Below, in pieces: positions 2,401 through 20,716 of a stretch of DNA of 55,013 nt. Source of the DNA: Syntrophomonadaceae bacterium (lineage in GTDB: Bacteria; Bacillota; Syntrophomonadia; Syntrophomonadales; Syntrophomonadaceae). Position 1 is the stretch's first letter; each line of letters opens with the position of its first letter. A program made the position numbers and the translations under genes. The DNA lies in contig JAAYCK010000097.1 of the NCBI GenBank assembly GCA_012729835.1, forward strand, positions 1 to 55,013, read 5' to 3'. Below the pieces are notes generated by a model. The model was not told the DNA's origin. It saw nothing but the letters and a program-made list of their open reading frames with translations, and did no database searches.

Positions 2401-5091
2401 CTAGATCTTTTCGAGTTTGACCGCCGCAACCTTGTATTCACCAGTTCCGGTGATCGGGTCCAAACCATCACTGGTGAGGGCATTAGTCGGGGTTCCGTTA
2501 TAATGGAACGACATCCATATCACGCCCGGCAGTACCCGGTCAGTTACCTTGACGTTGGTGATCGCTTCACCACGGCGAGAGGTTACCTTGAGCTTGTCGC
2601 CGGTTTTCACACCGAGTTTTTCAGCATCCTGCGGGTTGACTTCCGACATTTCCTTATCCCAAATACTGCTGATGCCGGGTGAATACGGAGTAGTAACATT
2701 ATAATGCTGCAGTATTCTGCCGGTGGACAGCAGGAAGGGATATTCTGCATCGGGCATCTCAGCCGGGGGAATGTGTTCCGAAGGCTGGAACAGTCCCAGT
2801 CCGCGGGTGAATTTACCAACATGCAGTACTGGAGTGCCGGGATGATCCGTGGTCGGGCACGGCCATTGGATGCTGTTCATTTCATCGATTCTCTGATAGT
2901 TGATACCAGCCATGGACGGAGACAGGGAAGCCATCTCGTCCCAAATCTCGCTGGGATCGTTATAGCTCATCGGATAGCCCATCTTGGTGACCATCTGACA
3001 AATGGTCTGCCAGTTGGCCTGACCGGGGATAGGATCAATAGCTTGACGTACTCTTTGGACGCGCCGCTCGGTATTGGTAAAGGTACCATCGCACTCAGCA
3101 AAACTGGCTGCCGGCAGTATTACATCCGCATATTCAGCAGTTTCGGTGAGGAACAATTCTTGGACCACCAGGAATTCCAAATGTTCTAATGCCTTGCGTA
3201 TATGGTTGGCATCCGGATCGGTTAAGACCGGATTCTCACCCAGGATATACATGGCTTTTACTTGACCTTCGTGAGCTGCCTTGAACATCTCCGGAATCTT
3301 CAGTCCCACTTTGCCAGACAGGGGTACTCCCCAGGCTTTTTCGTGTTTTTCCCGGGCTGCATCTACACCTACGCCCTGGTAGCCGGAGAATACATTCGGC
3401 AGGGCACCCATATCACAGGCTCCCTGAACGTTGTTCTGGCCACGCTGCGGGCAAACGCCGCATCCGGGGCGGCCCAGGTGTCCGGTCAGCATAGCCAGGT
3501 TAGCGCAGCTCATAACGTTGCGAGTTCCGCAGATATGCTCGGTAATACCCAGGGTGTAGAATATCATGGCCTTATCCGTCTTGGCATAGAGGCGGGCTAC
3601 GGAGTACAGATCATCTACTGATATACCAGTAAGTTCGGAAACCCGTTCAGGGGTGTAGGACTCCACGATGGCCTTGAGTTCTTCGTAGTTTTCAGTGCGT
3701 TCTTCGATGAACTTCTTGTCTTCCAGGCCTTCCTTGATGATGATGTGCATTAATCCATTCAGAAGAGGAATATCAGTACCAGGTTTCAGACGCAGCCAAT
3801 AGTCAGCTTCATCTACCAGGTCGATATGCCGGGGATCACATACTACCAGTTTGACACCCTTGCGGGCTGCCTTTCTCATCTTATAGCCAATGACCGGATG
3901 AGCCTCGGTAGGATTGGTACCGATGAGGAACATGAGCTCGGTTTCATTGAGAATATCACTTATCGGGTTTGTCATAGCGCCGCTTCCAAAGGTAGTGGCC
4001 AGACCGGCCACGGTAGGCGCGTGTCAGGTACGGGCGCAATGGTCGACGTTATTCGTCCCCATCACGGCACGGGTGAATTTTCCAACCAGGAAGTTTTCCT
4101 CATTGGTGCAGCGGGCTGAACTCAGGGCTGCAAAGGATTCGGACCCGTATTTGTCCTTGATTTCTTTGAATTTGGTGGCTATTAAATCGTAAGCCTCATC
4201 CCAACTGGCGGTCTCAAATTTGCCGTTCTTTTTGATGAGTGGGGAGGTCAGGCGTTTTTCATTGTAGATATAGTCCCAGCCAAAACGACCCTTTACACAC
4301 AGCATGCGCTGGTTGACCGGGGCGTCCGGGTTAGAAAGTACGCCGATGATCTTGCCTTCTTTAACCGCCAGGTCGAAGTTACAGCCAGTGCCGCAGAACG
4401 GGCAGGTGGTGCGTACGCGGTCGATATCCCAGCGGCGGGCCTTTCCAGCCAAAGTCTTTTCCGTTAGAGCGCCGGTAGGACAAACTGCGACACACTGTCC
4501 ACAGAATACGCAATTATCGGAATCGATATAGTCTACATCTCCTGCAGTAGTAGCTTTGCGGTGAAAACCGCGATTGAGGTAGGATAGATTGTCGGCGCCG
4601 GTGAGTTCTTCACAGGCTCTGACACAAGCTCCACAGAGTATGCACTTGTTCAGGTCGCGGATAATAAAGGGGTTGCTGTCATCAATGGCATAATCGTGCT
4701 TTTCTCCGGCAAAAGCACTGTCCTTTACGCCATACTTGTAGCAATAATCGGCCAGTTTGCAGTCACCCAGCTTGTCGCAGGTCATGCAATCCAGGGGATG
4801 ATTGGCAATCAAGAGCTCAAGAATAGTCTTGCGTGCCTCTGCCACTGCCGGCGATTCAGTGTCTACTACCATACCTGCGCTGATCGGGGTTACACAGGAA
4901 GCTGGCAGCAAACGATTGCCTTTAACTTCCACAACGCATAAGCGGCATGCACCAAGAGGGCTCAATTCTTTGTCGTAGCACAGGCGAGGAATCTCAATCC
5001 CGGCCAGTTCTGCGGCCTGCAGAATCGTGCTGCCCGCGGGAGCTTCTACCTCCCTTCCGTTGATGTTGAGTTTGACCAGTTCCACTAACAT
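2401..5091 (-). CDS. fdhA: Formate dehydrogenase alpha subunit, selenocysteine-containing
   Basis: Oxidises formate to CO2, or the reverse, at a Mo/W-bis-pterin site. The gene has 896 codons read through one in-frame TGA (4024-4026), which I read as selenocysteine 356 in the context DHCART-U-HAPTVAGLA. Domains in order: [2Fe-2S] ferredoxin (Cys38, 49, 52, 66); His98-Cys102-Cys105-Cys111 cluster; two [4Fe-4S] ferredoxin motifs (Cys150-160, Cys194-204); the pterin-enzyme [4Fe-4S] site (Cys230, 233, 237, 265); then the pterin-binding body and a C-terminal dinucleotide-binding domain. This layout is that of cytoplasmic NAD(P)/ferredoxin-linked enzymes rather than respiratory FdnG. The start is ATG at 5091 with AAAGGAG and AGGAG upstream. 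Automatic annotation would split it into two genes. Confidence 0.95.
3995..4026 (-). promoter_or_regulatory. UGA selenocysteine codon and bacterial SECIS-like hairpin in fdhA
   Basis: The TGA codon (4026-4024) is followed 12 bases later by a perfect 6-bp hairpin (4011-3995): GTGGCC, loop GGTCT, GGCCAC. Bacterial SECIS elements lie just behind the UGA and show a GU in the apical loop. The E. coli fdhF element also has GGUCU there. This is what SelB would recognise. The selA, selB and selC genes are not in the window. Confidence 0.85.
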
Positions 5092-5182: not shown

Positions 5183-5221
5183 CCACAAAAAAAGGATCTC
5201 TCTTTGTGGATAGGAGATCCT
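5183..5221 (-). terminator. Intrinsic terminator in the fdhA leader, with a competing hairpin
   Basis: On the minus strand, AGGATCTC (5221-5214) pairs perfectly with GAGATCCT (5200-5193) and is followed by a run of seven T. This is a typical Rho-independent terminator placed about 100 bases before fdhA. The terminator loop contains CCACAAA (5209-5203), which is complementary to TTTGTGG (5189-5183) spanning the end of the T-run. The two hairpins exclude one another, which fits an attenuation switch. Confidence 0.75.
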
Positions 5222-5227
5222 ACATTT

Positions 5228-5285
5228 ATATGTTTCGTACCATTTGTACTAATTTACGGGTTGAAACATATCAAAATGGCCATTT
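5228..5285. repeat. Inverted repeats between aptamer and terminator of the fdhA leader
   Basis: ATATGTTTC (5228-5236) and GAAACATAT (5263-5271) form a perfect 9-bp inverted repeat. Beside it lies the 12-base palindrome AAATGGCCATTT (5274-5285). Both lie in the presumed leader RNA of fdhA, between the aptamer-like domain and the terminator. They may be linker helices or protein operators. Confidence 0.5.
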
Positions 5286-5289
5286 AACA

Positions 5290-5400
5290 GGTCATTACTC
5301 CTTTCCAAGCAAGGGAGGCAAACTCGTTTCCAAATTAACCCTAATCGGCCAGGCAACCATGGCAAAAGAAGCTTTAGGTAGCTGGGCTCGGAGTTTGAAT
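5290..5400 (-). ncRNA. Probable molybdenum/tungsten cofactor riboswitch (Moco/Tuco RNA motif) upstream of fdhA
   Basis: Read on the minus strand, this stretch has conserved-looking blocks I recall from the Moco RNA motif: ACTCCGAGCCC (5394-5384) at the 5' side, then GGTTGCCTGG, TTTGGAAAC, GCCTCCCTTG and GGAAAGGAGT (5306-5297) at the 3' side. The outer ACTCC and GGAGT pair as the closing helix. The position fits: it lies between a good promoter and an intrinsic terminator in the leader of a Mo/W enzyme gene. I recognise the motif from memory of its consensus and could not run a covariance model. Molybdenum versus tungsten type is not resolved. Confidence 0.7.
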
Positions 5401-5456
5401 ATTCAGTTTTTTGATTTATAGTGCTAAGTATTCACCCCACAAAAAAGCACACTACA

Positions 5457-5487
5457 TTTATACCATATTAATTCAACGTCCAGTCAA
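5457..5487 (-). promoter_or_regulatory. Probable fdhA leader promoter
   Basis: Minus-strand TTGACT (5487-5482) and TATAAA (5462-5457) are separated by 19 bases. The -10 is extended by an upstream TGG (TGGTATAAA), which can offset the long spacer. Transcription would start near 5450. That gives a leader of about 360 bases containing the aptamer-like domain and terminator before fdhA. Confidence 0.5.
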
Positions 5488-13780: not shown

Positions 13781-13795
13781 GCAAATGCTATGAAG

Positions 13796-14066
13796 AAGTA
13801 AAGTAGCTTCGATGGAGTTATGCAGAGAGGGAGTGCCACCGGCTGTAAGCATTCCTATAACAAAACGGGGTGAAGTTCACTTCGGAGCACCCGGCTGAAA
13901 CATGCTAGACATGCAAGTAGGTCGAGGCGGAACTCCCACCGTTAAAGGGGAGGGGATATCGGATAACCTGTATCTTTATTACAAGCGGCCAACAGGCAAA
14001 GTGGGTGGTACCGCGGGTAGCAAATAAGCTTCTCGTCCCATAGTGGATGAGAGGTTTTTATTTTTT
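13796..14066 (+). ncRNA. T-box leader, probable Phe (UUC) specificity, with terminator
   Basis: A tRNA-sensing leader upstream of aroF-pheA. Visible parts: AGAGAGG (from 13825); the distal helix GGAGTGC/GCATTCC with the conserved GGCTGTAAG in its loop; GTGAAG-TTC-ACTTCGGAG, where TTC (13876-13878) sits in the specifier position; GCAAGTAGG; the CCGTTA block; and the T-box sequence TGGGTGGTACCGCGG (14002-14016). The terminator stem CTTCTCGTCC/GGATGAGAGG is followed by a T-rich run (14029-14066). A UUC specifier suits DAHP synthase and prephenate dehydratase downstream. The specifier is placed by pattern, not by a computed fold. Confidence 0.88.
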
Positions 14067-20510: not shown

Positions 20511-20716
20511 AAGGCTAAGGCTTCTTTTCATGAAAGAACCCCCTGCTGTGTGCGTGTTAGGTCGTTCAGTTTTTGCCAACACTCGGATTAAGGGAGCTTT
20601 GACTCTGGTATGAGGCATGTAGGCCCATTCACTGGGACACATTAATCATACAGGCGGGCACCCACCTGCTTAGCAGGTCTAAACCAGCGGCTACACGGCA
20701 ACAGTGGGGTTTTTTT
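20511..20716 (+). ncRNA. ssrS: Probable 6S RNA (RNA polymerase regulator)
   Basis: A roughly 200-base transcript between a sigma-A promoter and a T-run (20710-20716). The ends pair: CCCCCTGCTGTGTGCGTGT (from 20539) against ACACGGCAACAGTGGGG (ending 20709). The centre is open, with GGGCACCCACCTGCTTAGCAGGT on the 3' arm, a block I associate with Firmicute 6S RNA. A 6S gene beside aspS is also known in Bacillus subtilis. The precise ends are estimated; processing may start the mature RNA nearer 20535. No covariance search could be run. Confidence 0.7.

Follow-up and report, generated by a model that had tools for sequence, protein, structure and literature searches.

The leader of a selenium-containing formate dehydrogenase gene, fdhA, in a 55,013-nucleotide stretch of DNA from a Syntrophomonadaceae bacterium (contig JAAYCK010000097.1, hereafter the window) is a genuine switch RNA of a known class, a P3-lacking Moco/tungsten-cofactor riboswitch. 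The switch probably stops transcription of the enzyme gene when the cofactor is plentiful. The full explanation that we favour and consider likely is that it acts by transcription attenuation, with an antiterminator made from an aptamer strand, that its polarity is OFF and that the tungsten cofactor is its probable ligand.

A sequence-only reading had described an aptamer-like domain closed by ACTCC/GGAGT and containing CCGAGCCC, GCCTCCC and GGAAAGGAG, and had proposed a riboswitch of the Moco/Tuco type. All of these elements were located on the minus strand, and a cmscan search of Rfam identified the domain as a Moco/tungsten riboswitch aptamer (RF01055; positions 5405-5282, minus strand). 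The match is full-length (135/135 model positions) and far above chance, scoring 77.5 bits (E = 4.2e-17) against a gathering score (GA) of 36 bits. In the RF01055 alignment P1, P2, P4 and P5 are all visible together with the conserved core elements CUCCGAGC, GCCUCCC and GGAAAGGAG, and a few of the P2 and P4 pairs are non-standard. P1 joins ACTCC (5390-5394, minus strand), placed by the alignment and by predicted folds, to GGAGT (5297-5301, minus strand), read from the sequence; GGAAAGGAG (5298-5306, minus strand) covers both conserved core and P1 3' strand. The model positions corresponding to P3 are deleted in the window. Looking for P3 had been suggested as a way to tell Moco from Tuco aptamers, and its absence places this copy in the tungsten-type subgroup: Regulski et al. 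(2008) divided the class according to P3 and observed that copies lacking it go together with use of the tungsten cofactor (PMC2408646). Two other structured RNAs in the window, a T-box leader (13781-14043, plus strand) and a 6S RNA (20537-20714, plus strand), score above their Rfam gathering scores.

RF01055 aptamers characteristically stand ahead of genes for Mo/W enzymes or their cofactors, and such genes do follow here. As the sequence-only reading had it, the leader precedes a Mo/W-enzyme gene with moeA genes in the same unit. The first gene (2401-5091, minus strand) encodes a formate dehydrogenase alpha subunit (TIGR01591, 860 bits, cut-off 666) with an in-frame TGA that is read as Sec356 in the translation. 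Directly after the TGA lies a SECIS-like element (3971-4029, minus strand; RF01989, 43.2 bits, E = 4.6e-8, below the gathering score of 63), and the genome encodes selB with a score over its cut-off. The two MoeA-type genes, also on the minus strand, encode a MoeA/MoaB-like molybdopterin-binding domain protein (1351-2382; TIGR00177, 50.6 bits, below cut-off) and a MoeA/gephyrin-like protein (151-1335; NF045515, 234 bits, below the equivalog cut-off). Upstream of fdhA, mobB and fdhD lie on the same strand.

A plausible promoter, read from the sequence, lies about 60 nt upstream of the aptamer (5457-5487, minus strand) and would consist of TTGACT (5487-5482), a 19-nt spacer and an extended -10 element, TGGTATAAA (5465-5457). 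These elements are present as the sequence-only reading had claimed, but the candidate is a weak match to consensus and was not listed by a consensus promoter scan, its 19-nt spacing being outside the scanner's range of 16-18. The intrinsic terminator reported behind the aptamer is in place: a predicted hairpin of -11.9 kcal/mol, AGGATCTCCT...AGAGAGATCCT (5193-5221, minus strand), runs directly into a tract of seven U (TTTTTTT, 5187-5193, minus strand), whose first T also ends the terminator stem.

The best-supported platform appears to be a pairing between the aptamer 3' strand and the terminator 5' arm. The segment CTCCTATCC (5208-5216, minus strand), in the 5' arm and loop of the terminator, is complementary to GGAAAGGAG at 8/9 positions, all Watson-Crick, and the duplex is worth -12.0 kcal/mol compared with a shuffle mean of -4.1 (p 0.005, the floor set by 200 shuffles); at the rate taken from the window, a fraction of 0.0027 of such arms would reach 8 or more Watson-Crick pairs by chance. 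Over 56 related platforms picked automatically behind related aptamers, this complementarity is enriched too, with a combined Fisher p of 1e-11, which is optimistic because the platforms are related and the shuffles preserve base composition only, so that the figures rank hypotheses rather than measure them. In the controls over the 56 platforms the adjacent 10 nt gave 0.7 and the reversed bait 3.5e-4, indicating that part of the signal is purine/pyrimidine make-up. For several P3-bearing leaders the first terminator picker took wrong hairpins, errors that count against the combined test and not in its favour. A good CUCC partner was missing in some fdhA leaders (L077, L063 and L064).

Since P1 and this antiterminator both require the GGAAAGGAG strand, the two predicted structures are mutually exclusive, and this exclusion predicts an OFF switch. 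In predicted folds of an RNA that ends at CTCCTATCC, before the terminator 3' arm is made, the P1 state (-49.0 kcal/mol) and the antiterminator state (-47.3 kcal/mol) differ by 1.7 kcal/mol. Once the terminator is complete, the terminator state leads at equilibrium by 3.4 kcal/mol (-58.1 versus -54.7), thus antitermination must be kinetic and decided during transcription. We propose that fdhA and the two moeA-type genes would be controlled as follows: when no free cofactor is available, GGAAAGGAG (5306-5298) would pair with CTCCTATCC (5216-5208), occupying the terminator 5' arm and permitting read-through; when cofactor is present, P1 (ACTCC/GGAGT) would hold the GGAAAGGAG strand, the terminator (5221-5193) would form and transcription would stop. 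For a member of the same class, the E. coli Moco riboswitch, RNA-seq has been taken to indicate termination (PMC12121620).

A different platform had been put forward by the sequence-only reading, in which the terminator competes with a hairpin that consumes its own U-tract, the loop CCACAAA pairing with TTTGTGG. This pairing exists and is longer than stated: the predicted hairpin CCACAAAGAGAG/CTTTTTTTGTGG (5183-5209, minus strand) extends to 12 bp and is as stable as the terminator (-12.0 versus -11.9 kcal/mol), and when the downstream bases were shuffled 5000 times, an equally good hairpin arose in just 0.06% of the cases. It is compatible with a 5-bp antiterminator, and in an RNA extended to 5183, once GTGG exists, the two together (-61.1 kcal/mol) outdo P1 plus terminator (-58.4 kcal/mol). 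Similar matches between the loop and the bases after the U-tract occur in a few relatives, four of them individually at p <=0.05 (L025, L048, L050 and L112), and a test over 58 terminators gives a marginal signal (Fisher 0.04, or 0.06 with the window's own terminator left out). The "unusual platform" is therefore not a family-wide one; what recurs is the pairing between the 3' side of the aptamer P1 and the 5' arm of the terminator. Moreover, GTGG (5186-5183) is transcribed after the U-tract, past the termination point, and a hairpin whose 3' half is made so late cannot pre-empt the terminator; because it contacts no aptamer strand, the ligand could not control it directly either. The U-tract hairpin was thus rejected as the main switch on transcription order and lack of conservation, and we regard it as very improbable in that role. 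At most, it may act as a late stabiliser, folding beside the 5-bp antiterminator in the read-through RNA and perhaps holding its conformation, too late to decide termination. Of the earlier proposal of a cofactor switch before a selenoenzyme, then, the riboswitch, the terminator, the Sec-type fdhA and the moeA-type genes stand, but the pairing probably responsible for switching is a different one.

An ON switch, in which the cofactor promotes read-through and FdhA synthesis has to wait for its cofactor, would suit the physiology of an enzyme that uses the cofactor and heads its transcription unit; conversely, an OFF response is not intuitive for such an enzyme unless the moeA-type genes are the point. 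In the predicted folds, however, it is the P1 state that frees the terminator and the P1-broken state that supplies the antiterminator, and the leader holds no element that would release the antiterminator upon P1 formation. A conserved strand opposing P1 was sought in P3-lacking leaders such as the window's, and nothing comparable to that of the P3-bearing leaders described below was found (p 0.57). We consider an ON switch unlikely.

The metal in Sec-type FdhA enzymes can be Mo or W, and the same OFF riboswitch could also respond to Moco, or to either cofactor, with P3 absence being no mark of tungsten specificity. That the enzyme does not strictly dictate the P3 type is apparent from P3-bearing leaders on Sec-type fdhA genes of Desulfoscipio and a P3-lacking leader on one Cys-type fdhA. 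In E. coli, deletion of P3 did not switch specificity (PMC2408646). Against this, the 2008 survey found a near-complete correlation between P3 absence and tungsten genes (PMC2408646), and a P3-lacking copy in the bacterium's own genome (L003) precedes tungstate transport genes, among them WtpA (302 bits, over cut-off) and a TupA-like protein (219 bits, below cut-off). These genes, together with an AFOR-family oxidoreductase encoded in the genome, which counts for tungsten cofactor use, are indirect indications that the organism uses tungsten. A Moco or dual ligand is possible, though on the doubtful side; the tungsten cofactor would be the most likely ligand because P3 is absent. Direct binding of Moco or the tungsten cofactor was not demonstrated in the founding study, which weighs against the favoured explanation.

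The window's aptamer is one of ten RF01055 copies in the genome, nine without P3 and one with it, and the family is present in 52/61 genomes searched, mainly of Syntrophomonas and Syntrophomonadaceae relatives, where the leader recurs before fdhA. The combination named as refuting the earlier reading, a missing covariance-model match together with missing conservation in relatives, is thus contradicted on both counts. Besides those already mentioned, P3-lacking copies in the genome precede a FecCD-type ABC transporter (L002), a second, FdnG-like selenoprotein (L005, recognised by eye from its translation) and a unit of hypB and a NiFeSe-type hydrogenase (L007; L153, G000:C179:14524-14644). Hydrogen and formate enzymes thus stand under one switch class; hydrogenases behind Wco riboswitches were noted earlier in PMC9481103. 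The sole P3-bearing copy (L004/L150, G000:C151:11531-11668) lies directly before a Cys-type FdhA paralogue that has no internal stop and is 76% identical to the window's Sec FdhA.

In an FdhA tree of 48 related proteins plus three outgroup rows, most Sec-type copies stand behind aptamers that lack P3, and the Cys copies fall in a single clade within the Sec copies (support 100/100). Four of the six Cys copies have a P3-bearing leader, one has a P3-lacking leader and one has no aptamer; two Desulfoscipio Sec copies have P3-bearing leaders. As the Cys copies form a single clade, the association of Sec or Cys with P3 is not built of independent events. A strict rule that pairs Sec with P3-lacking and Cys with P3-bearing leaders was rejected, being broken by L072 and L075 (Sec with P3) and L156 (Cys without P3). 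In five genomes of one genus (L138, L141, L142, L144 and L160), the Sec-fdhA leader has two aptamers in a row, the first without P3 and the second with it, a series that possibly makes a two-metal gate. Longer series of RF01055 aptamers precede fdhA in L112 (five, 882-1913), L146 (four, 665-1443) and L164 (four, 839-1590).

P3-bearing leaders share an additional strand. A segment of consensus GGGAGCGTGCATTTGAAT lies about 90-100 nt past the aptamer in 11/11 of them (L150, L157, L158, L065, L072, L075, L138, L141, L142, L144 and L160), and in 10/11 no other segment matches the aptamer 5' flank and P1 5' strand better (-14 to -17 kcal/mol); in L075 the best match lies elsewhere. Over all eleven leaders the Fisher p is 1.4e-8, and the strand sequences vary too little for a covariation count. 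A polarity test of these leaders is confounded, purine-rich strands facing pyrimidine-rich arms, and another possible reading of GGGAGCGTGCATTTGAAT is the ribosome site of a TTG leader peptide.

Compared with known systems, the window leader is mostly ordinary and extends a well-described riboswitch class by one member. It resembles the P3-lacking (Tuco/Wco) group of RF01055 in its core, its P1-P2-P4-P5 architecture with a GNRA loop and no P3, its position upstream of Mo/W enzyme and cofactor genes and its terminator platform (PMC2408646); there is no categorical difference, and what the window adds is the aptamer-strand antiterminator with its comparative support. The E. coli moaA Moco riboswitch has an aptamer of the same family but belongs to the Moco-responsive group and hides a ribosome site in P1, unlike the window's P3-less, terminator-based leader. 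Tandem Moco and Wco riboswitches are known (PMC9481103), and relatives of the window's bacterium likewise hold several copies before fdhA, the window having a single one. That survey's passages on Moco and Wco list doublets and triplets for Moco and, separately, tandems for Wco, and do not mention a mixed pair; in the relatives, a P3-lacking and a P3-bearing aptamer can stand together, and series of four and five occur.

What gives the leader broader interest is the pairing of isozyme and subtype. Tentatively, and with rather more doubt than belief, related formate dehydrogenases may form a metal-choice circuit, set under a W- or a Mo-type riboswitch according to isozyme: the Sec form with P3-lacking leaders, the Cys form with P3-bearing leaders and their conserved strand complementing the P1 5' side, and the serial pair acting as a two-metal logic gate. 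With two 76%-identical formate dehydrogenases behind different subtypes in one genome, the role of P3 as a Mo/W discriminator becomes testable, and relatives that hold both subtypes in one leader bear on the same question. If the subtypes respond to different metals, metal supply would decide, by way of RNA alone, which formate enzyme syntrophic bacteria make.
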